Source of the DNA: Pseudomonas sp. Root562
Lineage (GTDB): Bacteria > Pseudomonadota > Gammaproteobacteria > Pseudomonadales > Pseudomonadaceae
Length of the DNA: 64,000 bases
Assembly: GCF_001427125.1 (NCBI RefSeq)
Contig: NZ_LMGK01000024.1
Location: 187,789-251,788, forward strand
Direction of reading: 5' to 3'
Part shown: positions 4,357 to 57,320 of the stretch, one piece after another
Layout: each line of letters starts with the position of its first letter
Numbering within the stretch: position 1 is the first letter of the stretch
Program-made: the position numbers and the translations under genes
The notes under the pieces: model-generated
What the model was told of the DNA's origin: nothing
The model's input: only the letters and a program-made list of their open reading frames with translations
Databases searched by the model: none

Positions 4357-5663
4357 GGTTTCACCTCAAGGTTGAGTTCGACAGATCGCTTTGCCCGTGG
4401 TGCTTCCTGCATGCAGTAAGTGCCCAATAGCGTCAGCAGGCAAGCGAACAACACATAGAACGATGGCGCCACCGGCGTCGCCAGGACTTTGCTCAGCCAG
4501 GTGACGATCAGCGGCGCGAAACCGCCGAAGACCATGACCGCAACGTTGTAGGCCACCGATACCCCGGTAGAGCGCACTTCAATCGGAAACTGTTCGGCCA
4601 GTGCGGTCGGCGCCGGGCCGAAAAAGCCGCCGATCGAACTGCACAGCAACAGTTGCATCACCAGCAAGCGCTCGATGGAGGGGGCTGCCGCCACCCACAC
4701 GTACAACGGATAGACCATCAGGAAAAACGCCAGGGTGAAGGCCATCAAAACCGGGCGTCGGCCGAGGCGATCCGACAATGCGCCGGACAATGGAATGACC
4801 ACGGTCATCAACGCCACGGCCAGCATCTGCACCAGCAGCACCTGGTCCAGCGGCAAGCCGAGATTCTTGTGAGCGAAGGTCGGCATGTTCACCAGGACCA
4901 CGTAGAACGACACAGTCGCACCGCACGCCAGGCCCATCGATACAAGAATGGCGCGGCGGTGTTCGCGGATCACTTGCAGCAAGCTTGGACTGGCGCCCTT
5001 GGCCTGTTTGCGCGCCTCAAGAAACTCCTCCGGTTCTTCCATGTGCTTGCGAATCCACAGCCCGACCGGGCCGATCAGCAAGCCGATGATGAACGGAATG
5101 CGCCAGCCCCAAAGGTCCAATGCCTCGGGGGTCAGCAAATGGGTGAACAACGCCACCATGCCGGCCCCGGAAAACACCGCCAGGCATTGCCCGACCAATT
5201 GCCACGAGCCATACAAACCCTTGCGGTGCGCCGGTGCGCTCTCCACCAGGAACGCCGTGGCACTGGCGTACTCACCACCCGTGGCGAAGCCTTGCAGCAT
5301 CCTTGCGACCACGATCAACAGCGGCGCCCCCATGCCGATGGCGGCGTAGTTGGGTGCAAAGGCGATCAGCGCGATGGACACGGTCATCAGGCGGATGATC
5401 ATCTGCATCGCCGCCTTGCGTCCTTTGCGATCCGAATACATGCCCAGCAGAATGCCACCCACCGGGCGCATGAAAAAGCCGACGCCGAAGGTCGCCAGCG
5501 CCATCAGCAGCGAGGCGTACTCATCCTCGGACGGGAAAAATTGCCGGGCGATGATACTCGCCAGAAAGCCGTAAACAATGAAGTCATACCATTCCAGTGC
5601 GTTGCCGACAACGGCGGCGACCACCTGCCGGGTGCGCGAAACGCCTGTGCTCGAAGTGTGCAT
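4353..5663 (-). CDS. MFS transporter, metabolite:H+ symporter type
   Basis: A 436-residue membrane protein with twelve predicted helices. The first helix region reads NALEWYDFIVYGFLA and the loop 2-3 motif is SDRKGRKAA, both typical of the ProP/KgtP/ShiA-like metabolite:H+ symporters. A second RLGRR loop lies in the C-terminal half. The ATG at 5663 has GGAGAG just upstream; an in-frame upstream start is less likely. It sits between the M20 hydrolase and the amidase genes on the same strand and overlaps the latter by four bases, so it probably imports the compound that these two hydrolases process. Confidence 0.88.
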   Translation of the reverse strand: MHTSSTGVSRTRQVVAAVVGNALEWYDFIVYGFLASIIARQFFPSEDEYASLLMALATFGVGFFMRPVGGILLGMYSDRKGRKAAMQMIIRLMTVSIALIAFAPNYAAIGMGAPLLIVVARMLQGFATGGEYASATAFLVESAPAHRKGLYGSWQLVGQCLAVFSGAGMVALFTHLLTPEALDLWGWRIPFIIGLLIGPVGLWIRKHMEEPEEFLEARKQAKGASPSLLQVIREHRRAILVSMGLACGATVSFYVVLVNMPTFAHKNLGLPLDQVLLVQMLAVALMTVVIPLSGALSDRLGRRPVLMAFTLAFFLMVYPLYVWVAAAPSIERLLVMQLLLCSSIGGFFGPAPTALAEQFPIEVRSTGVSVAYNVAVMVFGGFAPLIVTWLSKVLATPVAPSFYVLFACLLTLLGTYCMQEAPRAKRSVELNLEVKP

Positions 5664-5744
5664 GGGCAACTCTCCAAAAACCTGATGGGTAACGGCGGGC
5701 ACGACGGCGCGCGCCCGGTCCAGCGGCAGTAGAAAGTGAGGAAA

Positions 5745-6920
5745 TCAGGCCGGCTTGAGCCAGCTCTCGGTCAGCGCGCCCCAATACGCCGCGCCGGTCA
5801 GCAGGATGTCGTCGTTAAAATCATACGCGGGGTTGTGCACCATCGGCCGCGATACGCCATTGCCGATAAACAGGTAGGCGCCCGGGCAACGCTGGAGCAT
5901 CCAGGCGAAGTCTTCGCTGCCCATGAGTTTTGGCGTGTTGCCGTCCACCGCATCGGCGCCGAGCAACTCGACAGCGACCTGACGGGCGAATTCGGTTTCG
6001 TTGGCGTGGTTGACCAGCACCGGATAGGCCGGACGATGCTCGATGCGTGAACTGCAACCAAAACTCCTGGCCTGGGATTCGATGATCGCGCGCACCCGTT
6101 CGAGGGTCTGTTCACGCACTTGTGCATTGAGTGCGCGCAGGCTCAGGCGCAGGATCGCCTGCTGCGGTATCACGTTGGCGGCCTCCCCGGCCTGCAACGC
6201 ACCGACCGTGACCACTGCCGCTTGCTGCGCATCGATGTTGCGCGCCACCACCGTCTGCAAAGCCATGACCACGCTGGCTGCCGCCACCAATGGGTCGACC
6301 GCCAGATGCGGCATCGAACCATGTCCGCCGACGCCTTCGATGGTTACGGTGAGCAAGTCCTGCGACGCCATCATCGGCCCTTCACGAAAGCCCAAATGTC
6401 CGGCAGGCAGACCCGGCATGTTGTGCATGCCGAACAGCGCATCGCAGGGGAAACGTTCGAGCAGGCCATCGGCGAGCATGGCCTCGGCACCACCCTGGCC
6501 TTCTTCGGCCGGCTGGAAAATCAGGGTCAGGGTGCCGTCGAACTGCCGGGTCGCCGCCAGATAACGCGCGGCGCCCAACAACATGGTGGTGTGGCCGTCA
6601 TGCCCGCAAGCGTGCATGCAGCCCTGATGCTGACTGCTGTAGGTGGCGCCGGTGTTCTCGATGATCGGCAGCGCATCCATGTCGGCGCGCAATCCCAGTT
6701 TGCGCGAGCTGTTGCCGTTGCGCAGGACACCGACCACGCCGGTCTTGCCGATCCCGGTGTGAACCTCGTAGCCCCAGTCCACCAAGGATTTGGCCACCAG
6801 CGCCGAGGTGCGGTTTTCCTCGAAACCGAGTTCGGGGTGGGCATGGATGTCCTGGCGGGTGGCGTGCAGGTCGCTGGCCACGTCGCTGAGCCAGGCAAGG
6901 ATGTGCTGATGTCGAGTCAT
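5745..6920 (-). CDS. M20 family amidohydrolase (hippurate hydrolase/aminoacylase type)
   Basis: A 391-residue metallohydrolase beginning near DIHAHPELGFEE, with the metal-binding segments HACGHDGHTTM and QPAEEGQGGA, and the dimerisation domain in the middle (GVGGHGSMPH). This is the M20D pattern of hippurate hydrolases, N-acyl-amino-acid amidohydrolases and IAA-amino acid hydrolases. It would cleave an N-acyl amide bond in the cytoplasm. The ATG is preceded by GAGGAAA. It is the first gene of a set running into the transporter, amidase and IclR genes, with an 81-base gap to the transporter. Confidence 0.9.
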   Translation of the reverse strand: MTRHQHILAWLSDVASDLHATRQDIHAHPELGFEENRTSALVAKSLVDWGYEVHTGIGKTGVVGVLRNGNSSRKLGLRADMDALPIIENTGATYSSQHQGCMHACGHDGHTTMLLGAARYLAATRQFDGTLTLIFQPAEEGQGGAEAMLADGLLERFPCDALFGMHNMPGLPAGHLGFREGPMMASQDLLTVTIEGVGGHGSMPHLAVDPLVAAASVVMALQTVVARNIDAQQAAVVTVGALQAGEAANVIPQQAILRLSLRALNAQVREQTLERVRAIIESQARSFGCSSRIEHRPAYPVLVNHANETEFARQVAVELLGADAVDGNTPKLMGSEDFAWMLQRCPGAYLFIGNGVSRPMVHNPAYDFNDDILLTGAAYWGALTESWLKPA

Positions 6921-7103
6921 GACGATTTCCTCAGGCCGAGTGAATTCCCGTTCTTGTTGTTCGCTGTTCTTTTGTGGAGCGCGAGACGCATCAAAGGCAG
7001 GGGCTCACCGCCAGATAACCGCGAGTCGCGCACGAGGACAATCGAATGTGGTTCCACAGAGTGGAACCTGAGGGGAAAAAGCTTTGATGACCAATGCAAA
7101 ACC

Positions 7104-9866: not shown

Positions 9867-10622
9867 ATGACTCAGATCGCCCGCATCAGCGATACCGGCA
9901 ACGAACGCCGCCTGCAAGCCGAACGTCTGATAGGCGCCGAGGCTTTGCAGGAAGCTCAGGCCTTGCGTTTCAACGTGTTCAGCGGCGAGTTCAACGCCAA
10001 GCTCAAAGGCGCGGAACTGGGTCTGGACATGGATGACTATGATGTTCACTGCGCCCATATCGGCGTGCGTGACCTGAACACCGGGCGACTGGTGGCGACC
10101 ACCCGCTTGCTCGACCACACCGCCGCCAGCAGCCTGGGCAAGTTCTATAGCGAAGAAGAATTCAGCCTGCATGGCCTGGTCCATCTTCAAGGCCCGATTC
10201 TGGAAATCGGCCGTACCTGCGTCGACCCGGCCTACCGCAACGGCGGCACCATCGCCGTGCTCTGGGGCGAACTGGCCGAAGTGCTGAACCAGGGCGGTTA
10301 CAGCTACCTGATGGGTTGCGCCAGCATCCCGATGCAGGATGGCGGCATCCAGGCCCACGCGATCATGCAGCGTCTGCGGGAACGTTACCTGTGCACCGAA
10401 CACCTGCGCGCCGAACCGAAAAAACCGCTGCCGACCCTGGATATTCCCTCCAACGTAATCGCTGAGATGCCACCGCTGCTCAAGGCCTACATGCGCCTGG
10501 GCGCGAAGATCTGTGGCGAGCCGTGCTGGGACGAAGACTTCCAGGTTGCCGACGTGTTCATCCTGCTCAAGCGCGACGAACTCTGCCCGCGCTACGCCAA
10601 ACACTTCAAGGCGGCGGTGTAA
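9867..10622 (+). CDS. olsB: L-ornithine N-alpha-acyltransferase OlsB
   Basis: A 251-residue GNAT-fold protein with the pattern of Ols[10 protein letters not shown] near residue 35, [14 protein letters not shown], and [15 protein letters not shown] around residue 115, then [10 protein letters not shown]. OlsB transfers a 3-hydroxy-fatty acyl group from acyl carrier protein to the alpha-amino group of ornithine, giving lyso-ornithine lipid. The stop codon overlaps the ATG of olsA (TAATG), so the two enzymes of the pathway are made together. In Pseudomonas this pair is known to respond to phosphate limitation; I did not find a clear Pho box here. Confidence 0.93.
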
Positions 10623-11416
10623 TGAGCCGGCTGCGGGTGTACGCGCGAATCGCGCGAGTGTTGCTGGTGGTGGCGCTGGGGCTGAGCATGGCCAGTGTGT
10701 TCGGCGTGTTCGAACGCTTGGGCCTGGCTCATTCGATGGAGCGCCGTCAGCGCTGGTCGCGATTTTTTATGGCACGCCTGAGCAACGCCCTGCCCTTCGA
10801 CGTGACGGTCCACGGTCAATTGCCGACAGCGCCGATGCTGTGGGTCAGCAATCATGTGTCCTGGACTGACATCCCGTTGCTGGGCATGCTCACGCCGCTG
10901 TCGTTCCTGTCCAAGGCCGAAGTGCGTACCTGGCCTGTGGCCGGTTGGTTGGCGGCAAAGGCCGGCAGCCTGTTCATCCGCCGTGGTTCGGGTGACAGCC
11001 AGTTGATCCGCAAACAGATGACCCGTCATCTGCAGCATGCGCATCCGTTGCTGATGTTCCCGGAAGGCACCACCACCGATGGCCGCTCCCTGCGCACGTT
11101 CCACGGGCGGCTGCTGTCCGCCGCCATCGATTCGGACGTGGCATTGCAGCCGGTGGCGATTCGTTATGTGCGTGACGGTGAACTCGATACGCTTGCACCT
11201 TTCATTGGCGATGATGACTTGCTCTCGCACTTGATGCGCTTGTTTGCCAATGACCGCGGCGCTGTCGAGATCCACTTGCTCAAGCCAATCGTCTGCGAAG
11301 GTCGCGAGCGTGCGGCACTGGCGTTCGAGGCGCAGCAAGCGGTGCAGAAGGCGTTGTTTGGTGATGTGGTGAAACCTGCTGAACCGCGTCGTGCCGGCGA
11401 ATTGATCGCCGCGTAA
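10622..11416 (+). CDS. olsA: Lyso-ornithine lipid O-acyltransferase OlsA
   Basis: A 264-residue PlsC-type acyltransferase with an N-terminal membrane segment (IARVLLVVALGLSMASVFGVF), the catalytic motif NHVSWTD and the substrate motif FPEGTTTDG about 75 residues further on. It acylates lyso-ornithine lipid at the hydroxyl of the fatty acyl chain, on the inner membrane. The ATG used here overlaps the olsB stop by one base; a longer reading frame starting inside olsB is not needed. A palindromic repeat follows and may end the transcript. Confidence 0.93.
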   Translation: MSRLRVYARIARVLLVVALGLSMASVFGVFERLGLAHSMERRQRWSRFFMARLSNALPFDVTVHGQLPTAPMLWVSNHVSWTDIPLLGMLTPLSFLSKAEVRTWPVAGWLAAKAGSLFIRRGSGDSQLIRKQMTRHLQHAHPLLMFPEGTTTDGRSLRTFHGRLLSAAIDSDVALQPVAIRYVRDGELDTLAPFIGDDDLLSHLMRLFANDRGAVEIHLLKPIVCEGRERAALAFEAQQAVQKALFGDVVKPAEPRRAGELIAA

Positions 11417-11424
11417 GCACTTTT

Positions 11425-11515
11425 CTGTAGGAGCAAAGCTTGCTCGCGATGGGATCGACGCGATTTGACTGATGACCGCGTTATCGTTCATCGCGAACAA
11501 GCTTTGCTCCTACAG
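11425..11515. repeat. Palindromic repeat, CTGTAGGAGCAAAGCTTGCTCG type
   Basis: CTGTAGGAGCAAAGCTTGCTCGCGATG is matched by its near-perfect inverted copy ending in GCTTTGCTCCTACAG. It lies between the convergent olsA and acpH genes and can form a long hairpin in either transcript, so it may act as a two-way terminator, though there is no T-run. Confidence 0.9.
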
Positions 11516-11524
11516 GGGGTTGTG

Positions 11525-12094
11525 TCAGCGGTTCTGCGCAAAATCCTGCAACTGCGGATAGAACAACCGGAAATCTTCGCTCAACGGCTCGTACAACATC
11601 CGTAATTCCTGCATCGCGGCCGCCAGCTCTTCAGGCCGGGTCAAGCGCCGGGAAATCCCCCGCAGCACCTGTTCCAGCACTTCAAATTCCCGATACGAAC
11701 CCAACCAGTCATTGGCCACCATGTGCGGGGCAATCTTCGCCAGGCGCTCTGGCAGTTGTCGTTCACGGGACAGCACGCGATACACATCCGAAGTGAACAG
11801 CTCCAGCGGCCGGTCGGCATACAGCCGCCAGTCCCGCGCCAGGCAATGATCGAAAAACACGTCGAGCACGATCCCGGCATAACGCCGGCGCGTCAGGGAA
11901 AACCGTGACAGTGCGGTATCGACCAAAGGATGGCGGTCGGTAAACACGTCGATGCTGCGATGCAGCTGGATGGCCGCTTCAATCTCCGGTTCGAACTGTC
12001 CTTGCAGCCTGCCTTTGACGAAATCGCCATACAGACTGCCGAGCAATTGACCGGGACGCTGGCCACCGAGGTGAAGATGTGCGAGATAGTTCAT
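11525..12094 (-). CDS. acpH: Acyl carrier protein phosphodiesterase
   Basis: A 189-residue protein starting MNYLAHLHLGG and continuing LLGSLYGDFVKGRL, then HRSIDVFTDRHP and VFFDHCLARDW. These conserved His/Asp segments are those of the AcpH family (DUF479), a metal-dependent hydrolase related to HD-domain enzymes. AcpH removes the 4-phosphopantetheine group from acyl carrier protein. Length matches the family (about 193 in E. coli). It converges with olsA, another ACP-using function, but regulation looks independent. Confidence 0.92.
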   Translation of the reverse strand: MNYLAHLHLGGQRPGQLLGSLYGDFVKGRLQGQFEPEIEAAIQLHRSIDVFTDRHPLVDTALSRFSLTRRRYAGIVLDVFFDHCLARDWRLYADRPLELFTSDVYRVLSRERQLPERLAKIAPHMVANDWLGSYREFEVLEQVLRGISRRLTRPEELAAAMQELRMLYEPLSEDFRLFYPQLQDFAQNR

Positions 12095-12136
12095 GGGCGC
12101 AGCTTAGCACCGCGCCCCGGTATCTACACCCAGCAT

Positions 12137-12240
12137 ATCGTTATAACCCGATATACCGATTTATTCGGTCGTCAGATCGAAATCATATTGGTATATCGCG
12201 AAATACCGATTTAAAGTTCGCTTCATCGCGATATAGCGTT
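12137..12240. promoter_or_regulatory. Operator region with TCGCGA-centred and related palindromes before the ArsR gene
   Basis: An AT-rich stretch contains a near-perfect 18-base palindrome at 12190-12207 (GGTATATCGCGAAATACC). A second, shorter one lies at 12225-12232 (ATCGCGAT) and a diverged half-site pair around 12137-12160 (CCGATATACCGATTTA). The repeated core CGATATACCGATTT/CGAAATACCGATTT suggests a multi-site operator. It directly precedes the ArsR gene and lies upstream of the MFS and reductase genes, so autoregulation by the ArsR protein is likely but inferred. Confidence 0.65.
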
Positions 12241-12263
12241 TTACTGATCACGAGCCCCCAACC

Positions 12264-12566
12264 ATGAACCTTGACCTCGACGAAATAATAAAAGCCCTGG
12301 CGCATCCGGTACGCAGAGACATCCTGCACTGGCTCAAAGACCCGACCGTCGAATTCCCAGACCAGTCCCACAGCAACGAGCACGGCGTTTGCGCCGGGCA
12401 GATCGATCAACGTTGCGGCCTGTCGCAATCCACGGTGTCCGCGCACCTGGCGACCTTGCAACGCGCCGGCCTGATCAGCAGCCGCAAAGTCGGCCAGTGG
12501 CACTTTTTCAAACGCAATGAGGAAACCATTCAGGAGTTCCTCAAAGTCTTCAGCAAAGAGCTCTGA
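12264..12566 (+). CDS. ArsR family transcriptional repressor
   Basis: A 100-residue winged-helix protein: KALAHPVRRDILHWL at the start, recognition helix GLSQSTVSAHLATLQRAGL, then the wing SRKVGQWHFFKRN. This is the ArsR/SmtB pattern. The metal-site motif ELCVCDL of true ArsR proteins is absent; two cysteines (VCAGQ and RCGLS) remain just before the recognition helix, so a redox or electrophile signal is conceivable. It heads a unit with an MFS exporter and an OYE reductase, the kind of set that is induced by electrophiles. Confidence 0.9.
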   Translation: MNLDLDEIIKALAHPVRRDILHWLKDPTVEFPDQSHSNEHGVCAGQIDQRCGLSQSTVSAHLATLQRAGLISSRKVGQWHFFKRNEETIQEFLKVFSKEL

Positions 12567-12594
12567 CCCCAAGTCAGAAAAAAGGATTCAGACG

Positions 12595-13761
12595 ATGCCC
12601 CTCTCGCTACTCATATTGGCCTTGAGCGCCTTCGCCATCGGCACCACCGAGTTCGTCATCATGGGCTTGCTGCCTGATGTGGCGGCCGACCTCGGTGTGT
12701 CGATCCCCGGCGCCGGCTGGCTGGTGACCGGTTATGCCCTGGGCGTGGCCATCGGTGCGCCATTCATGGCCCTGGCCACCGCCAAACTGCCGCGCAAGGC
12801 TGCATTGGTGGCGTTGATGGGCATTTTCATCATCGGCAACCTGCTCTGCGCAGTGGCCAGTGACTACAACGTGCTGATGTTTGCCCGCGTGGTCACGGCG
12901 CTGTGTCACGGTGCGTTCTTCGGCATCGGTTCGGTGGTAGCTGCTGGTCTCGTGCCTGCGAACAAACGCGCATCAGCCGTGGCCCTGATGTTCACCGGCC
13001 TGACCCTGGCCAACGTGCTCGGCGTACCCCTGGGCACCGCTCTGGGCCAGGAAGCCGGCTGGCGTTCGACCTTCTGGGCCGTGACCGTGATTGGTGTGAT
13101 CGCGCTGATCGGCCTGATCCGTTTCCTGCCGGCCAAGCGTGATGAAGAAAAACTCGACATGCGCGCCGAACTGCGAGCCCTCAAAGGCGCCGGCATCTGG
13201 TTGTCCCTGAGCATGACCGCGCTGTTCGCCGCGTCGGTGTTCACCCTGTTCACCTACGTCGCGCCGCTGTTGGGCGAAGTCACTGGCGTTTCGCCCCGGG
13301 GCGTGACCTGGAGCCTGATGCTCATCGGCCTGGGCCTGACCCTCGGCAACATCATCGGCGGCAAGATGGCCGACAAAGGCCTGGCCGCCACGCTGATCGG
13401 CGTTTTCATCGCCATGGCCGTGGTGTCGACCGTGCTGACCTGGACCAGCGTCGCCGTGATCCCGACCGAAATCACCCTGTTCCTTTGGGCCACTGCGTGT
13501 TTTGCCGCCGTGCCTGCCCTGCAGGTCAACGTGGTGACCTACGGCAAAGCCGCGCCGAACCTGGTCTCGACCCTCAACATCGGCGCATTCAACGTCGGTA
13601 ACGCCTTGGGCGCCTGGGTCGGTGGCAGCGTGATTGCCCACGGCTTCGGCCTGACCAGCGTGCCGCTCGCAGCCGCAGCGCTGGCGGTGCTCGCCCTGCT
13701 GGTGACCCTGATTACTTTCCGTCAGAACGGCAATCCCGAACTGGCTCCTGCTACTAACTGA
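12595..13761 (+). CDS. MFS exporter, DHA1 (AraJ/YdhP-like) family
   Basis: A 388-residue membrane protein with twelve helices that starts MPLSLLILALSAFAIGTTEFVIMGLLPDVA. The GTTEFVIMG segment in helix 1 and the short tight loops are typical of the YdhP/AraJ drug:H+ antiporter branch. The ATG at 12595 is preceded by AAAGGATT; a longer frame would overlap the ArsR gene. It is flanked by the ArsR repressor (28 bases upstream) and the OYE reductase (21 bases downstream). It likely exports a toxic compound or its reduced product. Confidence 0.9.
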   Translation: MPLSLLILALSAFAIGTTEFVIMGLLPDVAADLGVSIPGAGWLVTGYALGVAIGAPFMALATAKLPRKAALVALMGIFIIGNLLCAVASDYNVLMFARVVTALCHGAFFGIGSVVAAGLVPANKRASAVALMFTGLTLANVLGVPLGTALGQEAGWRSTFWAVTVIGVIALIGLIRFLPAKRDEEKLDMRAELRALKGAGIWLSLSMTALFAASVFTLFTYVAPLLGEVTGVSPRGVTWSLMLIGLGLTLGNIIGGKMADKGLAATLIGVFIAMAVVSTVLTWTSVAVIPTEITLFLWATACFAAVPALQVNVVTYGKAAPNLVSTLNIGAFNVGNALGAWVGGSVIAHGFGLTSVPLAAAALAVLALLVTLITFRQNGNPELAPATN

Positions 13762-26827: not shown

Positions 26828-27593
26828 ACCTCATCACCGATCGTTCCCATGCTCTGCGTGGGAATGCAGCCAGGGACGCTCCGCGTCCAGGTTCCAAAGC
26901 CGAACGCGGAGCGTCCGTTGAGGCGTTCCCACGCAGAGCGTGGGAACGATCCAAATAACCGCCTGATCTCCGAACGCGGAGCGTCCGTTGAGGCGTTCCC
27001 ACGCAGAGCGTGGGAACGATCCAAATAACCGCCTGATCGTCAGCTATCCGATCAGCCTGCTCTAAACACCACCACCGATCGTTCCCATGCTCTGCGTGGG
27101 CATGCAGCCAGGGACGCTCCGCGTCCAGGTTCCAAAGCCGAACGCGGAGCGTCCGTTGAGGCGTTCCCACGCAGAGCGTGGGAACGATCCAAATAACCGC
27201 CTGATCGAGGCGTTCCCAACGCGGAGCGTCCGTTGAGGCGTTCCCACGCAGAGCGTGGGAACGATCCAAATAACCGCCTGATCGTCAGCTATCCGATCAG
27301 CCTGCTCTAAACCTCACCACCGATCGTTCCCATGCTCTGCGTGGGAATGCAGCCCGAGACGCTCCGCGTCCCGTCCAAAGCCGAACGCGGAGCGTCCGTT
27401 GAGGCGTTCCCACGCAGAGCGTGGGAACGATCCAAATAACCGCCTGATCGTCAGCTATCCGATCAGCCTGCTCTAAACCTCACGTGCCGAACGCGGAGCG
27501 TCCGTTGAGGCGTTCCCACGCAGAGCGTGGGAACGATCCAAATAACCGCCTGATCGTCAGCTATCCGATCAGCCTGCTCTAAACCTCATCACC
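26828..27593. repeat. Composite repeat array with copies of the porin gene tail
   Basis: The 865-base gap between the porin and pcaC is filled with GTTCCCACGC-family elements. I count three left arms (near 26837, 27075 and 27320) and six right arms ending CGTGGGAACGATCC. The right arms run into AAATAACCGCCTGATC. Four of them continue into full copies of the last 40 bases of the porin region, including its stop codon: about 27029-27067, 27274-27313, 27440-27479 and 27546-27585. Two others stop after 11-14 bases (26959, 27197). The original is at 26791-26830. Unequal crossing-over or slippage is the likely cause. No gene is seen; small reading frames here are repeat artefacts. Confidence 0.92.
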
Positions 27594-39644: not shown

Positions 39645-39850
39645 ATCGTTCCCACGCTCTGCGTGGGAATGAATCCCGTGACGCTCCGCGTCAGAATTGG
39701 ACGCAGAGCGTCCATGGCGGCATTCCCACGCAGAGCGTGGGAACGATCAAGAACGCAGAGCGTGGGAACGATCAAGAACGCAGAGCGTGGGAACGATCAA
39801 GAACGCAGAGCGTGGGAACGATCAAGAACGCAGAGCGAGGGAACGATCAA
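39645..39850. repeat. GTTCCCACGC-family repeat with a 25-base tandem tail
   Basis: A complete palindromic element (39645-39750) is followed by four tandem 25-base units starting at 39751, 39776, 39801 and 39826. Each unit is GAACGCAGAGCGTGGGAACG plus ATCAA, that is, the right arm of the element repeated. The last unit has GAGCGAGG for GAGCGTGG. It lies between pitA and ccoM, which converge. Confidence 0.92.
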
Positions 39851-39868
39851 CTTCAAGGAATCGCAGGC

Positions 39869-39894
39869 AAAAAAAAGGGCAACCGAAGTTGCCC
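39869..39894 (-). terminator. Rho-independent terminator of ccoM
   Basis: On the minus strand GGGCAAC, loop TTCG, GTTGCCC and then eight T. The tetraloop and the perfect seven-base stem make it strong. It lies 36 bases after the ccoM stop. Confidence 0.92.
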
Positions 39895-39929
39895 AAAATG
39901 CCTTGCGTGCTCATTGCATCCAGAAAGAC

Positions 39930-40046
39930 CTACGGTTTTTTCCGCTTGTGCGAATCCTTCCAGATAAAAAATCCGAATCCTGCAAAAAAAACGAACATGA
40001 GGCTGACGGTCAGCACTCCGGCGATCACCACGTTGTCGAAAAACAT
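39930..40046 (-). CDS. ccoM: CcoM-like small subunit of cbb3-type cytochrome oxidase
   Basis: A 38-residue single-helix protein that starts MFFDNVVIAGVLTVSLM and ends with FIWKDSHKRKK. It matches closely what I remember of CcoM from P. stutzeri (MFVDNVVLAGVVTVGLM..., IWKDAHRK), a subunit that stabilises the cbb3 oxidase. The ATG has AGGAG upstream and a terminator follows, so the gene stands alone. It is too short for usual ORF cut-offs and easily missed. The cco oxidase operon itself is not in this window. Confidence 0.75.
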   Translation of the reverse strand: MFFDNVVIAGVLTVSLMFVFFAGFGFFIWKDSHKRKKP

Positions 40047-40189
40047 GACGCGTCTCCTGCTGTTGCCCTGTTGCGATAGGGCTAAGTTACCCAAACGGGC
40101 AGGAGAAAGAATTGACCGGGATCAATGTTGCCCGAGACCGGGCTCAAAGGAGGGGAAAAACTGACCTGCATCAACCGATGACGGGGGAT

Positions 40190-45717: not shown

Positions 45718-47946
45718 ATGGGGCATGCTATGGAGTGGCTTGGTCTGCATTTCATTACCGAGCTGCCAGAGAGTGGGCAGGTCATACTCAACTGCATACA
45801 TGACCCTTTTCTGGTGCTTTTGGCTTATCTGGTTGCCTGTGCTGGCAGTTTTGCCACGCTGGACATGGCCGAGCGGGTGGCTCATGCAGAAAAGAAGGCG
45901 TCACAGCGACTCTGGCGCTGGGTCGGCGCCGGATGCCTCGCGGGCGGAATCTGGGCCATGCACTTCATCGGCATGCTGGCGTTCCAGGCACCGATAGATA
46001 TCCACTACCAGTTGCCCATTACCCTCGCCTCTCTGCTGATCGCCCTGCTCGCTTCGTGGCTGGCGATGCACACCCTCAGCCTTGCGCAGTTGAGCTTCTG
46101 GCAATGTTTCAGGTCAGCCATCGGTGTCGGCCTGGGCATCGCCGCCATGCATTACGTGGGCATGTCTGCACTGAGTTCGCCGGCGCAGGCCTACTATCAA
46201 CCGCTGTTGTTCGGCCTGTCGATCGTGATCGCTATCGGCGCCAGCATGGCGGCCCTGTTGCTGTCGAGTTACTTGCGCAACGAAACAGGGACGTTTCATC
46301 AACTGCTCAAGTACGGTGCCAGCCTGGTACTCGGGGCGGGGATCATCAGCATGCATTTCACCGGCATGGCTGCCTTCAATCTGGTGCTGCCCAGCGACAG
46401 CCTCCTGGCTCAGCCCGGAGAAAACAATCACTTTCAACTCGGCCTGACCGTAGCGATCATGACGCTGCTGATCATCGGTAGCAGTATCAGCGCGGCGCTG
46501 GCGGACAAAAAGTTGCAACACAAGGAACTCGATTTGCAACGGGTCAACTCGTTGCTCAGCCAACTGGACCAGGCGCGCATGTCCCTGCAACAGGTGGCGC
46601 ACTACGATCCATTGACCAACCTGATCAACCGTCGCGGTTTCAACCAGCTGTTCGCCGAGAAACTCAGCGAGAAAATCCACGAGGGCGGCAGGCTCGCGGT
46701 CCTGTTCCTCGATATCGACCACTTCAAGCGGATCAACGACAGCCTTGGCCACGATGCCGGCGATGAGTTGCTCAAGGTCATTGCCGGGCACATCAGAAGC
46801 TCCATACGCAGTCACGCCGATGTGGTTGCGCGCTTCGGTGGCGATGAGTTCTGCATCCTCATCGACCTGCATGATCGAGAAGAAGCGCGGCACATGGCCC
46901 AGCGCATCATGCAAAAAATGAAAGAGCCCATTGAACTTGCCGGACGGCGCATGGTGATGACCACCAGCATCGGCATCAGCGTGTTTCCGGAAGACGGCAA
47001 ATCCTGCGAAGAGCTGTTGAAAAACGCCGACCTGGCGCTGTATCAGTCCAAGGGCAGCGGTCGCAACGGTCTGAATTTTTTCAGCGCCAACCTCAAGGCC
47101 CGCGCCACGCTGGAACTGCAACTGGAAGAAGAACTGCGTTACGCCCTGCGTGAAGACACCGGCCTGATGCTCTATTACCAACCGATCTACGACCTGAAAA
47201 CCGGCCAGGTCAGCAAACTCGAAGCGTTGATTCGCTGGCAACACCCGACCCACGGCTTCCTCGCCCCGGACCGTTTCATCACCATTGCCGAAGCCAACGG
47301 CCTGATCACCGAACTGGACCATTGGGTATTGCGCAAGGCGTGTGAAGACTTGGGCGAGCTATCGCGGCAAGGCTGCGAGGTGCTGAGGATCGCCGTCAAT
47401 TGTTCGCCCTTGAGCCTGGCCCGCGAAGAGTTGTCCTCCGAAATCGAACGGGCGCTGCGTGACGCCGGGGTCGCGCCGCAACGGCTGGAACTGGAAGTGA
47501 CCGAGAACGCACTGATGGGCAACATCGCCGATACGCTGGTGCAGTTGCGGCAGATTCGCACCCTCGGCGTGTCACTGTCGATCGATGATTTCGGCACCGG
47601 TTATTCGTCCCTGGCGTATCTCAAGCGCTTGCCGTTGAACACTCTGAAAATCGACCGTTCGTTCATCCAGGACATTCCCAACTCGACTCAGGACATGGAA
47701 ATTGTCCAGGCGATCATCGCCATGGCCCACACCCTGCACCTGGAAGTGGTGACCGAGGGCGTGGAAACCTTCGAGCAGTACCAGTTTCTTGAAGGTGCCA
47801 GTTGCGATTACGTTCAGGGTTACCTGCTCAGCCGTCCGGTACCGCTCGCCGAATTGCTCCCGGTGCTGTATGAAATCAATCAGCGCAAACACTCCTACTC
47901 AGTCACGACGCTGAGTCTGGTGCACGGTACATCTGCACTAATGTAG
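45718..47946 (+). CDS. MHYT-GGDEF-EAL cyclic di-GMP protein (MucR-like)
   Basis: A 742-residue membrane protein. Residues about 15-265 carry the MHYT sensor: seven helices with motifs MHFIGMLAF, MHYVGMSAL and MHFTGMAAF, thought to bind copper and sense oxygen, CO or NO. Then comes a GGDEF domain (DPLTNLINRRGF; active site ARFGGDEF; the position of the I-site reads SHAD, so feedback inhibition is doubtful) and an EAL domain with EALIRW, EVTENAL and DDFGTGYSSL intact. Both enzyme activities are possible. MucR, the P. aeruginosa relative, has the same order. The ATG has GGAAG upstream. The 3' end overlaps the next gene by 44 bases, tail to tail. Confidence 0.93.
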   Translation: MGHAMEWLGLHFITELPESGQVILNCIHDPFLVLLAYLVACAGSFATLDMAERVAHAEKKASQRLWRWVGAGCLAGGIWAMHFIGMLAFQAPIDIHYQLPITLASLLIALLASWLAMHTLSLAQLSFWQCFRSAIGVGLGIAAMHYVGMSALSSPAQAYYQPLLFGLSIVIAIGASMAALLLSSYLRNETGTFHQLLKYGASLVLGAGIISMHFTGMAAFNLVLPSDSLLAQPGENNHFQLGLTVAIMTLLIIGSSISAALADKKLQHKELDLQRVNSLLSQLDQARMSLQQVAHYDPLTNLINRRGFNQLFAEKLSEKIHEGGRLAVLFLDIDHFKRINDSLGHDAGDELLKVIAGHIRSSIRSHADVVARFGGDEFCILIDLHDREEARHMAQRIMQKMKEPIELAGRRMVMTTSIGISVFPEDGKSCEELLKNADLALYQSKGSGRNGLNFFSANLKARATLELQLEEELRYALREDTGLMLYYQPIYDLKTGQVSKLEALIRWQHPTHGFLAPDRFITIAEANGLITELDHWVLRKACEDLGELSRQGCEVLRIAVNCSPLSLAREELSSEIERALRDAGVAPQRLELEVTENALMGNIADTLVQLRQIRTLGVSLSIDDFGTGYSSLAYLKRLPLNTLKIDRSFIQDIPNSTQDMEIVQAIIAMAHTLHLEVVTEGVETFEQYQFLEGASCDYVQGYLLSRPVPLAELLPVLYEINQRKHSYSVTTLSLVHGTSALM

Positions 47947-48799
47947 ACGGGTCTTTTTCCAGATTCCCCTGGGCGCCGTGCAGGCGCATCAATTGCGCCG
48001 CCAGACCGCTGACCGGAGTTGCCGAGCCCTGTTCGCGGGAAAACTTCACCGCCGTGTCCAGGTCCTTGAGCAAGGTCCGCACGTGCCACTTCACCGGTTC
48101 GAAACGACTGTCGGCCATTTGAGGAGCCAGGATCTGCAGCGGCTTTGAATCGGCAAAGCCACCGGCCAGCGCTTCGGCGATCAAATTGGCATCGACACCC
48201 GAACGCTCTGCCAGGGCCACCACTTCGGCAATCACCAGCGCATTGCAGGCAACGATCATCTGATTGCAGGCCTTGGTCACCTGCCCCGCTCCGACCGCCC
48301 CCATGTGCGTCACGCGCTGGCCGAGGCTCAGCAAAACCGGTTTAACCCGCTCAAGCGCCGTCCCGTCGCCACCGACCATGATCGCCAGGCTGCCAGCCTG
48401 CGCCCCGACGACACCGCCAGACACAGGCGCATCGAGCCAGCCCATGCCGGTTTTGCTGACGAGCTCAGCTGCCATTTCACGCGTTGCCGTCGGTTCCAGG
48501 CTGGAAAAGTCCACCAGCAACTGGCCATTTTTCGCACCCTCGATCACTCCCGCGGTGCCGAATACCACACCGCGCACCACCGCCGTGTCCGCCAGGCACA
48601 GCATCACCACGTCGGCGTGCTGGCACAGTTCGGCCGGGGTCGCGACCTGACGTGCCCCGGCCTCGACCAGCGGCGCGCACTTGGCCGGATTGCGATTCCA
48701 CACCGTCAGCGGGTAACCCGCCGCGAGCAATCGCCGGCACATCGGCAACCCCATCAAGCCAATTCCGGCAAAACCCAGCGAAGGTAGCATTGACATCAT
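47903..48799 (-). CDS. Beta-hydroxyacid dehydrogenase (tartronate semialdehyde reductase/3-hydroxyisobutyrate dehydrogenase type)
   Basis: A 298-residue NAD(P)-dependent enzyme: dinucleotide fold GFAGIGLMGLPMCRRLL at the start, substrate motif WLDAPVSGGVVGAQAG (about 125-140) and the catalytic lysine in GQVTKACNQMIVACN. The choice between GlxR/GarR and MmsB cannot be settled from sequence reading alone. The ATG follows AAGGAGG, an unusually good site, with a second ATG directly after. It converges on the MHYT gene with 44 bases of overlap, so transcripts may interfere. Confidence 0.88.
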   Translation of the reverse strand: MMSMLPSLGFAGIGLMGLPMCRRLLAAGYPLTVWNRNPAKCAPLVEAGARQVATPAELCQHADVVMLCLADTAVVRGVVFGTAGVIEGAKNGQLLVDFSSLEPTATREMAAELVSKTGMGWLDAPVSGGVVGAQAGSLAIMVGGDGTALERVKPVLLSLGQRVTHMGAVGAGQVTKACNQMIVACNALVIAEVVALAERSGVDANLIAEALAGGFADSKPLQILAPQMADSRFEPVKWHVRTLLKDLDTAVKFSREQGSATPVSGLAAQLMRLHGAQGNLEKDPSTLVQMYRAPDSAS

Positions 48800-48997
48800 T
48801 TTGCCTCCTTTTGATTAAAGATCGCCAAATCTTGGCCGATTTATCATGACTTAGGAAAGGATTCCCCCGAGCGACGTTCAGGCCACGGCACTGACGCTTG
48901 GGCCAAATACGCGCTGATAAAAGACGCGAGATCTTATTCCGTGACGGTTTGACGACAGCCTGTCGCCCGACCAACCAGCCCAGGTACATGGCGAACA

Positions 48998-51196
48998 ATG
49001 ACTTCTAAAAATAACCCGGCCACCGCGATTTCCGACCTGACGCTGAGCCCGGCGGCGAACAGCCCCGCACCGTCGAAGCCATTGCCGCCATCGCGCCCGC
49101 TGGCGAGCCAGCAATACCTGTACTTCACCGAAACCAATACCGACCGCATCCTCGACAACCTCGACGGCCTGCGCGACATGGTGTTCCCGCGTCCGCCCCA
49201 CCTGGAAGGCGACAACGAACAGTACAGCGATCAGGAATTCCCGTCGGTGTGCCTGATCGGCCTGGGCCGCTGCGGTTCGAACATTGCGCTGGATGTCGCG
49301 GAGCTGGTGTACAACGCCCGCAAGTTCTACCTCAACGAATTCAACAGCGAAGATCGCCTGTCGCCGGACAAACGTTTTGCCGAAAAGGGCTACAGTCCGG
49401 CCCAGTGGATCCGCAACAACCTGCGCCTGGGCCAGAACAAAAACACCAAGCCGGTATTTCTGGTCGAGCCACTGGTGATGCTCGGCGACCTGGACAAAGA
49501 CATCGCCGGTCGCATCCGCTTCTCGCGCAAAGGCGAAAAAAGCGGCTTCCTGCGCGATTACAGCAAAATGAAAATCATGGACTTGTCGGAAGTCCATGCC
49601 GGTGGCGCCGGTAACGCGCCGATTCTCGGCCAGTACCTGGCCAAGATCATCCTGAACAAGGACACCCAGCGTTTCTCCAGCCCTGACTGGAAAATGATTC
49701 ACTCGTACCTGATCGACAGCTGTGGCATCAAGGCCAACCAGTCGCGCCTGTATTTCTCGATCTTCAGTGCTGGCGGCGGTACCGGTTCGGGCATGGCCTC
49801 GGAATTCGGCCTGGCCCAGCAGCACTCGTACATGAACAAGACGTTCGACACCAAACCGATGGACGAGCACGACAGCAAGAGCGGCCACTCCTTCGTCTTC
49901 GAACCGATCTTCACCAGCGGCATCTGCGTACTGCCGAACATTTCCGATCATCGCAGCGAAATGTCCGAAGCACTGCACATCAACGCCGGTCGCTTGCTGT
50001 GCAAATACCTGTCGGAAGAATGGGACTTCTCCTACAACTTCGCCAATGAAGACAGCAGCGAAGCGAGCGTCATGGGCCGTATCCGCCCATGGAACGCAAT
50101 GATGCTGATCTCCAACGACATCATGCGTTATGCCGAGGAAAACGATGACGGCAACATCCAGAACATTGATGTCAATGCGATGGAAAAGCACGCCAATCAA
50201 TACATTTCGCAGCAGATCTTCAACATTCTGACAGCGCAGGCGGTTACGACTGACTACGATCAGAACTATTTCCGCCGCGCCGGCATCGACATCGGTGAAA
50301 CCATCCGCCTGGACGCCAACGACCTGTTCATGAGCCTGGCCGGCCCCGTGGCGATTGCCTATGCCGAATCCGTGGTGCCGGAAACCCCGCCGCCAAGCAG
50401 CGACAAATTCAAGGTCTTCGAGAAAGAGCCGCAGCGCCTGAACATCGACGACCTGTTCTTCCGCTCGATCGACCTGCCGCACTTCAACAAAGTCACCCAG
50501 GCCATCGAAGGCATCAGTCTGTTGCCGATCGAGTCCAAGCGTTATCGCGCATCGCTGGAGCAGTACAAGAATTCGGGTTATGACGCCGCCGCGCTGCACG
50601 ACCTGCACTTCTTCAAGAACTGCTCGTCGGTGGTGTCGATCGTTTCCCTGCCGAAGGATTACAAGCTGTCGTACATGGACCTGAACCGGTTGAAGACGCA
50701 CCTCAACAGCCTGTTCCCCAACACCACACTCAAGCGTTACGCGCTGGTGATCGGCGCCTCGGCCAACCTGTCGCTGACCACCCTGATCGCCAAGAGCCCG
50801 TGCCTGTCGGACGACTTCCTGACCCTGATCGTGGCGTTCATCAAACGTTGCTTCGCGAAAAACCCGTACCGCTTCGACGAGACGCTGGACAACTCGATCC
50901 TGGACTTCATCATCAATGAACACTTTGACGAGGACCTGATCGACGACCTGCTCAACGAATTCGAGAACCCGGCGAAGATCCTCGATACCAACTGGTACGC
51001 GATCAAACCGATGTACGAGAAGAAATACCGCGAGCTGATCAACGACAAGGACAAGTTCGTTTCGATCAACGATATCCGCCTGTCCCGGGATTGCGTGAAG
51101 AAGGCAATCAAGTACCTGCGCGAGATCTACCGTCATCGCATAGGCAAGACCAAGGTTATTTCGTTGAATAACCATACGGGTAAAACTGCCTACTAA
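48998..51196 (+). CDS. Tubulin/FtsZ-like GTPase of unknown role
   Basis: A 732-residue protein. After a proline-rich N-terminus (1-40), the nucleotide-binding motifs of the tubulin superfamily appear in order: T1 as CLIGLGRCGSN (G88 to N95), the tubulin signature SAGGGTGSG (A258 to G265), a helix-rich segment, and a T7-like loop RLDAND (D439, D442), after a helix like H7. FtsZ has GGGTGTG and NVDFAD at the matching places. About 270 further residues end in a basic tail. No signal peptide or membrane helix is seen. The spacing T1-T4 (170 residues) is longer than in FtsZ. I think it belongs to the Pfam family Tubulin_2 (PF13809). No partner genes are adjacent. Confidence 0.8.
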   Translation: MTSKNNPATAISDLTLSPAANSPAPSKPLPPSRPLASQQYLYFTETNTDRILDNLDGLRDMVFPRPPHLEGDNEQYSDQEFPSVCLIGLGRCGSNIALDVAELVYNARKFYLNEFNSEDRLSPDKRFAEKGYSPAQWIRNNLRLGQNKNTKPVFLVEPLVMLGDLDKDIAGRIRFSRKGEKSGFLRDYSKMKIMDLSEVHAGGAGNAPILGQYLAKIILNKDTQRFSSPDWKMIHSYLIDSCGIKANQSRLYFSIFSAGGGTGSGMASEFGLAQQHSYMNKTFDTKPMDEHDSKSGHSFVFEPIFTSGICVLPNISDHRSEMSEALHINAGRLLCKYLSEEWDFSYNFANEDSSEASVMGRIRPWNAMMLISNDIMRYAEENDDGNIQNIDVNAMEKHANQYISQQIFNILTAQAVTTDYDQNYFRRAGIDIGETIRLDANDLFMSLAGPVAIAYAESVVPETPPPSSDKFKVFEKEPQRLNIDDLFFRSIDLPHFNKVTQAIEGISLLPIESKRYRASLEQYKNSGYDAAALHDLHFFKNCSSVVSIVSLPKDYKLSYMDLNRLKTHLNSLFPNTTLKRYALVIGASANLSLTTLIAKSPCLSDDFLTLIVAFIKRCFAKNPYRFDETLDNSILDFIINEHFDEDLIDDLLNEFENPAKILDTNWYAIKPMYEKKYRELINDKDKFVSINDIRLSRDCVKKAIKYLREIYRHRIGKTKVISLNNHTGKTAY

Positions 51197-51205
51197 GCGT
51201 CTCCA

Positions 51206-51310
51206 GATCGTTCCCATGCTCGGCGTGGGAATGCCTCATCCGACGCACTGCGTCCGCTTGGGACGCTCTGCGTCCCTGGCTGCGTTCCCACGCAGAGCGT
51301 GGGAACGATC
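51206..51310. repeat. Palindromic repeat, GTTCCCACGC family
   Basis: GATCGTTCCCATGCTCGGCG and the arm CGCAGAGCGTGGGAACGATC enclose inner arms around GGACGCTCTGCGTCC. The left arm has two changes. It follows the tubulin-like gene by ten bases. A small hairpin GCAGCC-CTCA-GGCTGC at 51347-51362 lies downstream and may help end the transcript. Nothing else is seen up to the DUF2288 gene. Confidence 0.9.
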
Positions 51311-51491: not shown

Positions 51492-51797
51492 TCAGGACTG
51501 CGCCCTTTCCTGAATCATAATCCACGGCGAAACCACCACCGCCCACAGCTGCGGATCACGTTCAAAAAGATCCAGCGCCCGCGTTTCAGACAGCTTGGCG
51601 AGCTGGTCTTCGGCCAGCCAGGCAGCCACTTTCTCGCCTTCATCACTCGCTACGGCCTCTGCCGCGGCGATCAGATCCAGGCTCGCGTCGACCCATAATA
51701 GGGCACCCTTGGCAAAGAACGGCTCCAGTTCCTTCCAGGTAATAGATGCGGTTTCACCAAGCAGTTTGGCATAGAGGGTGCTAGGTTCTTCAGTCAT
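51492..51797 (-). CDS. DUF2288 family protein
   Basis: A 101-residue soluble protein: STLYAKLLGETASITWKELEPFFAKGALLWVDASLDLIAAAEAVA and the ending RDPQLWAVVVSPWIMIQER. This corresponds to the DUF2288 family, small proteins of gamma-proteobacteria without known function. The ATG at 51797 is used; the frame extends upstream but with sequence that does not fit the family. It stands alone between the tubulin-like gene and the bra operon. Confidence 0.82.
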   Translation of the reverse strand: MTEEPSTLYAKLLGETASITWKELEPFFAKGALLWVDASLDLIAAAEAVASDEGEKVAAWLAEDQLAKLSETRALDLFERDPQLWAVVVSPWIMIQERAQS

Positions 51798-52147
51798 GGG
51801 TCCGGTCCGGAAAAGAAATCGACGCAATGATAACGTCGGTGGTCTGGCAGAAAAACCCAGATGCAATTTGTGTCACTGAACGAAAAGAGCAGGAAGGCCA
51901 AGGAATGCACGGAATCTGGCTATAAGCCTTTCAACGCCCCGCCGCAATTCTGTCTTTTTCTTTCAAAATGGCGACACCCCCAAGTTTTGCCCCCTGGCGC
52001 CAGCTTCCCAGGCTGACAATCGGCGCTCTACACTGTACCGGTACAGTTGCCGGGGGGCATTTCCGGGGGATGTCGTAGATATCTGACCCGGTTCTGCTGC
52101 CAACGGCGCCAGGACTATAAAAACTACAACAGTAAGAGTGGAGCACT

Positions 52148-57215: not shown

Positions 57216-57320
57216 GATCGTTCCCACGCTCTGCGTGGGAATGCAGCCTTGGACGCTCCGCGTCCCAAGCGGACGCAGAGCGTCCGGCGAGGCATTCCCA
57301 CGCAGAGCGTGGGAACGATC
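57216..57320. repeat. Palindromic repeat, GTTCCCACGC family
   Basis: GATCGTTCCCACGCTCTGCG and CGCAGAGCGTGGGAACGATC are perfect outer arms. Inner arms GGACGCTCCGCGTCC and GGACGCAGAGCGTCC are near-inverted. It lies between the bra terminator and the end of the convergent LysR gene. Confidence 0.92.

Follow-up and report, generated by a model that had tools for sequence, protein, structure and literature searches.

What does a tubulin-like protein do in a bacterium whose ordinary FtsZ is encoded elsewhere in the genome? The question is raised by a 64,000-nt stretch of Pseudomonas sp. Root562 (assembly GCF_001427125.1, contig NZ_LMGK01000024.1, positions 187,789 to 251,788; hereafter the window), in which a first-pass annotation had recorded a stand-alone tubulin/FtsZ-like protein. 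On re-translation, the open reading frame (ORF) 48998-51196 on the plus strand gave exactly what had been recorded, 732 residues followed by a stop codon, with GLGRCGSN starting at residue 88, AGGGTGSG at 258 and LDAND at 438. The analysis presented here indicates that the protein fits a family named FtsZl2 in 2010 and that, in the Pseudomonas fluorescens-type clade, its gene lies behind a conserved promoter-like element with the layout of sites for the sigma factor FliA (sigma-28). We propose, as a reading whose chances we consider evenly balanced, that FtsZl2 is a GTP-driven tubulin-like polymer made together with the late flagellar genes in this clade. The coordinates of all features are collected in Table 1.

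Membership of the tubulin/FtsZ superfamily was assessed with an ordered scan, in which five loop profiles (T1, T3, T4, T6 and T7) built from 11 FtsZ proteins were placed with free spacing and in fixed order. The window protein reached a total of 19.6, with the profiles placed at residues 84, 201, 252, 367 and 435. Among 291 background ORFs from the same loci, each 400 residues or longer, the top score was 3.9; the reversed protein scored -19.4, none of 1000 shuffled versions attained 19.6, and the 158 distinct sequences of the family all scored between 15.6 and 23.4. Loops T1, T4, T6 and T7 of the tubulin/FtsZ GTPase therefore occur in the expected order. The first-pass annotation had seen T1, T4 and T7 in this order, which the scan bears out, and had missed T3, T6 and the element upstream. 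It had also made its proposal turn on the conservation of these three motifs, and a catalytic role of D439 and D442 on that of the two residues: the T4, T6 and T7 words, together with N373, D439 and D442, are identical in every one of the 158 sequences, many of which come from close Pseudomonas relatives, and T1 departs from the exact word in two. The T1-like loop by itself is unspecific, since in one further genome sample 11 of the 20 matching genomes gave weak matches only (E 0.13-1.0) and the two of these eleven that were inspected both proved by eye to be 6-phosphogluconate-type dehydrogenases.

Curated models place the protein at the margin of what they recognise. PF00091 gave 18.2 bits, below its cut-off of 33, and the comparison with Tubulin_2 (PF13809) that the annotation had suggested gave 16.4 bits, under the cut-off of 27; a search of the own genome with this model found no match above threshold. 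Sub-threshold matches to both families were nevertheless present in 48 of 48 aligned members (best PF00091 E-value 0.00021), and a PF00091 search of the own genome picked up the T1 and T4 pieces of the gene, correctly ordered though with E-values at the level of chance. NCBIfam, PADLOC and PHROGs offered no family of note for the window protein, and sequence searches of the PDB returned either nothing or a single chance-level match to ribosomal protein L23. Taking the motifs and their order as the basis, and not a fold, we regard it as almost certain that the protein belongs to the tubulin/FtsZ superfamily.

To which branch of this superfamily does it belong? FtsZl2 was defined on PFL_1302 of P. 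fluorescens Pf-5 by Makarova and Koonin in 2010 and is characterised, in the accessible text of that paper, as proteobacterial, with loops T1, T4, T6 and T7, without coiled coil or associated genes, and with a C-terminal region of about 300 residues of mixed alpha/beta structure that matches no known family (PMC2875224). The window protein fits this description in the points examined: it shares the proteobacterial host, the four loops, the long C-terminal region, the absence of associated genes and the presence of an ordinary FtsZ alongside, and we found nothing that sets it apart from the type, the conserved FliA-like element being simply not mentioned in that accessible text. A copy in Pseudomonas protegens FD6 is 92% identical and lies in the same neighbourhood, and we infer with some force that the window protein is the counterpart of PFL_1302. 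The annotation was right in what it observed and partly right in its interpretation: a chromosomal tubulin-like protein outside cell division stands, whereas the kind of protein is not new, because it fits the family of 2010.

FtsZl1/Tubulin_2 proteins share the superfamily signature and the separation from FtsZ, and the weak matches of all 48 aligned members point the same way, but the window protein stays under the PF13809 cut-off and has recognisable T6 and T7 loops, which the 2010 study, as far as its accessible text goes, could not confidently locate in FtsZl1 (PMC2875224); moreover, no vWA, kinase or OmpA partner was found among the 19 neighbour proteins scanned. With FtsZ it shares loops T1, T3, T4, T6 and T7 in identical order, while differing in its PF00091 score, in its length (732 versus 397 residues) and in its position outside the division cluster. 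The TubZ and PhuZ proteins of plasmids and phages are tubulin-superfamily GTPases that likewise work outside division; in genomic setting, FtsZl2 differs from them by having a chromosomal gene with no plasmid or phage match. The accessible text of a superfamily phylogeny from 2023 omits Tubulin_2 proteins and does not mention FtsZl by name (PMC9871819), and no bench study of the FtsZl2 family was found in the literature searched, subscription journals lying mostly outside it.

The same DNA also carries an antisense ORF of 779 residues (48878-51217). The ratio of nonsynonymous to synonymous substitution (dN/dS) of the plus-strand gene is 0.06-0.16 against eight Pseudomonas homologues and the mean column identity of the 48 aligned sequences is 69%, so it is the plus strand whose protein is conserved and whose gene is under purifying selection. 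Its proline-rich N-terminus, correctly noted in the annotation (8 prolines within the first 40 residues), is among the least conserved regions in the 158 sequences, and the proteins of the families labelled f26 and f65 start about 30-40 residues later, by start codons chosen by script. At the other end, the figure of about 270 extra residues was an overstatement: 290 residues follow T7 in the window protein and 184 in the FtsZ of the own genome, which leaves about 105 extra, the remainder occupying the place of the usual C-terminal domain. No Pfam family exceeded its cut-off in this region when the window protein was scanned, and the region's secondary structure comes only from low-confidence AlphaFold models. 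For the basic amphipathic segment listed in Table 1, a helix at 697-712 is predicted only in a low-confidence AlphaFold model. The own genome (6.2 Mb, 26 contigs) has one copy of FtsZl2; its ordinary FtsZ, the one ORF above the PF00091 cut-off, is on a separate contig beside an FtsA-like ORF recognised by eye, in agreement with the annotated location away from division genes.

A clue to when the protein may be made lies upstream of its gene. Aligned leaders of P. fluorescens-type loci contain two conserved blocks, with the clade form TAAAGA-N13-GCCGAT. The strict pattern TAAA-N15-GVCGAT is found within 260 nt of the start codon in 109 of 110 such loci, the exception having TCAAG, and before none of 892 other script-chosen ORFs in the context loci. 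Some species entered the set twice through two collections, and the leaders, including that of the window, reduce from 111 to 100 distinct ones; in these the best-conserved hexamers are GCCGAT and GGCCGA (both 1.000) and TAAAGA (0.998), the rest averaging 0.738, and the spacing between the blocks never varies. The element matches only once in the 64 kb of the window. It is kept in all 72 loci that have the divergent dehydrogenase gene and equally in all 37 of the 109 loci that lack it in intact form (35 with no trace, one with pieces and one with a fragment), and is thus not part of that gene.

What might read such an element? The Pseudomonas FliA consensus, as given in the accessible text of PMC7286023, is TAAAGTTT-N11-GCCGATAA, and the same text describes FliA sites before flaA, fliS, flgM and motA of P. 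fluorescens MFE01, whose transcripts drop in a fliA mutant. The window element agrees with this consensus at 12 of 16 positions and has its exact spacing. In a 400-kb stretch of another genome of the genus (G036), genes recognised by eye show comparable arrangements: fliS lies behind TAAAGTTC-N11-GGCGATAC and a flagellin gene behind TCAAG-N14-GACGATAA, a site also recognised by eye. The perfect core TAAA-N15-GCCGAT has a single occurrence, within a coding sequence, in 800 kb of control DNA composed of that stretch and 400 kb of other DNA taken from three genomes. From these resemblances we consider it more probable than not that FliA controls FtsZl2 in the P. fluorescens-type clade. The suggested link between FtsZl2 and late flagellar genes would be new as far as our searches reach; among the matches listed in the literature searched, no paper naming the gene together with FliA was found.

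A model of how such a protein might work can be outlined from its relatives. FtsZ and tubulin assemble head to tail, and the aspartates of T7 complete the GTP site of the neighbouring subunit. By analogy, FtsZl2 would bind GTP through T1-T6 and its subunits would join head to tail; D439 and D442 of T7 would enter the following subunit's GTP site and trigger hydrolysis there, with a dynamic filament as the result; the basic amphipathic segment at 693-710 might then contact the inner membrane or a partner. We consider polymerisation likely. In the P. fluorescens-type clade the protein would be made with the class IV (late) flagellar genes under FliA, and for this reason a spatial or structural task in motile cells seems plausible, in preference to division, plasmid or phage work; the number of flagella, their placement or segregation, and chemosensory arrays are candidates. 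The fully specified version makes FtsZl2 of this clade a class IV gene under FliA and gives its GTP-driven polymer the task of positioning, counting or segregating flagella or chemosensory arrays. It is put forward tentatively and is on balance unlikely as worded; we know of no bacterial tubulin homologue for which such a role has been described. The core activity may be independent of flagella, since other lineages, which are without the element, would express FtsZl2 differently.

Several observations weigh against this proposal. The -10 box of the window element lacks the final AA of the consensus. The strict element is absent from the loci scored in a second Pseudomonas group (0/8), f14 (0/2), f16 (0/11), f20 (0/9) and f26 (0/13), and a looser pattern is met in 1 of 11 f16 loci (L213) and 3 of 10 f65 loci; FliA control would therefore be a property of one clade. 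According to the accessible text of PMC4866697, a gene can be affected by FliA without having such a site, so that site and control need not coincide. No flagellar gene was found among the neighbours scanned. On the structural side, the AlphaFold models are of low confidence (mean predicted local distance difference test score, pLDDT, 38.0 with 14 aligned sequences and 42.2 with 48), and none of the 22 Foldseek matches of the latter model reached an E-value of 0.001. In a profile-profile comparison the 11 FtsZ proteins came top of 26 alignments (E 0.011, where the top decoy of 25 had 0.024), but the reversed FtsZl2 profile outscored the forward one (32.5 versus 29.3) and 1 of 100 column shuffles reached the forward score, for which reasons we discarded this comparison as evidence.

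Could the filament exist and have nothing to do with flagella? The incomplete -10 box would fit such a view, in which the same GTP-driven filament serves a housekeeping, envelope or stress role and the element, FliA-like by resemblance, is recognised by some other sigma factor or regulator. So would the retention of the protein and its unchanged GTP-site words in lineages without the element, the different conserved upstream blocks of the second Pseudomonas group and f16, and neighbours that vary from lineage to lineage. We take this to be a serious possibility, if short of probable, given that the element agrees with the published FliA layout in its fixed spacing and in its invariant blocks, TAAAG and GCCGAT, and that the strict pattern was never found in the 892 other upstream regions. 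A GTP-binding protein that keeps the tubulin fold but has lost polymerisation, or that acts as a regulator of FtsZ or of a different partner, with T7 serving a dimer, would fit a C-terminal part some 105 residues longer than that of FtsZ, which could block the ends of a filament; since neither T7 aspartate would be needed without catalysis between subunits, and both are invariant, we find it improbable.

The GTPase motifs are common to FtsZl2 and FtsZ and could suggest a paralogue acting in cell division. That the genome has an ordinary FtsZ beside an FtsA-like ORF on another contig, that the gene is missing from 17 of the 58 other genomes of the genus and that PF00091 falls so short of its cut-off make this very improbable. 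Hardly credible, finally, is a gene of plasmid, phage or other mobile-element origin that serves TubZ/PhuZ-like positioning or defence: the gene is stand-alone and patchily distributed, as such an origin might predict, but it has no match in phage or plasmid collections or in two scans of viral contigs and no PADLOC or PHROGs family, synteny is kept within lineages, and the groups stay mostly together on the tree.

How widely is FtsZl2 distributed? Our genome samples covered Proteobacteria only. FtsZl2 occurs in 41 of 58 other genomes within the genus; the whole sample behind this figure, the own genome included, gave 44 of 95. The gene becomes sparse in wider samples, with 9 of 398 at the level of the phylum, 2 of 369 for the class and 23 of 390 for the order (own or centre genome included). 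By family, it occurs in 11 of 12 f65 genomes (one in pieces), 11 of 100 of f16, 2 of 6 of f14 and 9 of 121 of f20, and in 1 of 3 genomes of the order of f150. A scan of all genome contigs gave 292 loci with a relative, the best 80 of which are all from Pseudomonas and up to 98% identical. Full-length matches from the alignment-based genome searches all had at least 1200 bits and nothing intermediate was found, which points to a narrow family. On a tree of 48 rows the eight groups need seven changes, the minimum possible. Because f65 does not form a single clade beside f26, and f150 falls on a long branch within the second Pseudomonas group, a few transfers are possible. Decay is also seen: locus L044 of genome G472 carries at 9912-12762 an FtsZl2 gene broken into several pieces and interrupted by stop codons, 10 of the 11 other genomes of that family having a full-length match.

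Upstream regions of the other lineages have features of their own. A conserved block, CTGTATATAGTGCT, precedes the gene in part of the second Pseudomonas group (L046, L048, L052 and L053), and two others, TTGTATTT and CTAGCGTTAA, are found in most f16 loci. The FliA-like sites before 3 of the 10 f65 genes were dropped as candidates, as they lie within the coding end of the upstream gene.

The neighbours of FtsZl2 are constant inside a lineage and differ across lineages, in agreement with the statement of 2010 that the family has no partner genes. In the window they also include a major facilitator superfamily transporter and a periplasmic binding protein. A GGDEF-EAL gene for turnover of bis-(3′-5′)-cyclic dimeric guanosine monophosphate (c-di-GMP) lies at most 1.1 kb away in 7 of 8 P. 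fluorescens-type loci, adjoins FtsZl2 in 8 of 13 f26 loci and lies 2.2 kb away in the sole f150 locus; none was found within 4 kb in the second Pseudomonas group (0/8), f14 (0/2), f16 (0/11), f20 (0/9) or f65 (0/10), and the control density was 4 matches per 400 kb in each of two genome sets. A link of FtsZl2 to c-di-GMP enzymes is accordingly a weak lead. In f26 the adjoining gene, on the same strand, is of Amt-PAS-GGDEF-EAL type, and its order is swapped between loci, downstream in five (L042, L167, L168, L170 and L171) and upstream in three (L172, L173 and L174). The f150 locus (L160) has at 5004-7037, on the minus strand, a 678-codon ORF with no Pfam or PHROGs match that shares the strand of FtsZl2, overlaps the end of that gene and is possibly an operon partner. 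In 7 of 11 f16 loci (L161, L213, L214, L217, L218, L219 and L220) an L,D-transpeptidase-type gene, its domains checked in L161, lies directly upstream on the same strand.

Two further features of the window were noted. A palindromic repeat, GTTCCCACGC-N3-GCGTGGGAACG, which we take to resemble the repetitive extragenic palindromic (REP)-type repeats of Pseudomonas, occurs at 17 sites when up to 3 mismatches are allowed, where 0.03 would be expected. The sites form pairs and clusters at 82-194, 26842-27535, 39647-39745, 51209-51307 and 57219-57317, one pair being just downstream of FtsZl2. The only Rfam match in the window is the small RNA PhrS, at 39868-40085 on the minus strand (192.4 bits).

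Table 1. Features of the FtsZl2 locus, in window coordinates.
Feature	Coordinates	Strand	Basis or remark
Neighbour, MHYT-GGDEF-EAL protein (c-di-GMP turnover)	45718..47946	+	Beside 7/8 P. fluorescens-type loci examined
Divergent neighbour, 3-hydroxyisobutyrate-dehydrogenase type	47903..48799	-	Missing or broken in 37/109 related loci
Promoter-like element TAAAGATC-N11-GCCGATTT, FliA/sigma-28 layout	48816..48842	+	155 nt before ATG, pointing at FtsZl2
FtsZl2-type tubulin/FtsZ-superfamily protein, 732 aa	48998..51196	+	ORF translation, conservation, loop scan, dN/dS
Proline-rich, poorly conserved N-terminal tail (residues 1-40)	48998..49117	+	Residue count, column conservation
T1 loop GLGRCGSN (88-95)	49259..49282	+	GLGRCGSN 156/158, GFGRCGSN 2/158; FtsZ T1 profile
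T3-like loop HAGGAGNAPILG (200-211)	49595..49630	+	Identical 149/158, single change 9/158; FtsZ T3 profile, own score weak (0.9)
T4 tubulin signature AGGGTGSG (258-265)	49769..49792	+	158/158; Pfam, FtsZ T4 profile
T6-like loop LISNDIM (370-376), including N373	50105..50125	+	158/158; FtsZ T6 profile
T7-like loop RLDANDLF (437-444), including D439 and D442	50306..50329	+	158/158; FtsZ T7 profile
Basic amphipathic segment (residues 693-710)	51074..51127	+	Helical hydrophobic moment 0.754 (Eisenberg scale), the protein's maximum
Convergent downstream neighbour, DUF2288 protein	51492..51866	-	Domain scan

Why does this locus matter? FtsZl2 was left in 2010 without a functional clue, and the promoter-like element is a first lead to its role. 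Judged by its sequence, the protein, which many easily handled soil and plant Pseudomonas carry, is a GTPase of tubulin type with invariant catalytic loops, and its role is directly testable because the sigma-28-type promoter-like element is conserved. The known jobs of bacterial tubulin relatives are division and the positioning of plasmids and phages; if FtsZl2 does form dynamic filaments in flagellated cells, a new job would be added to these.

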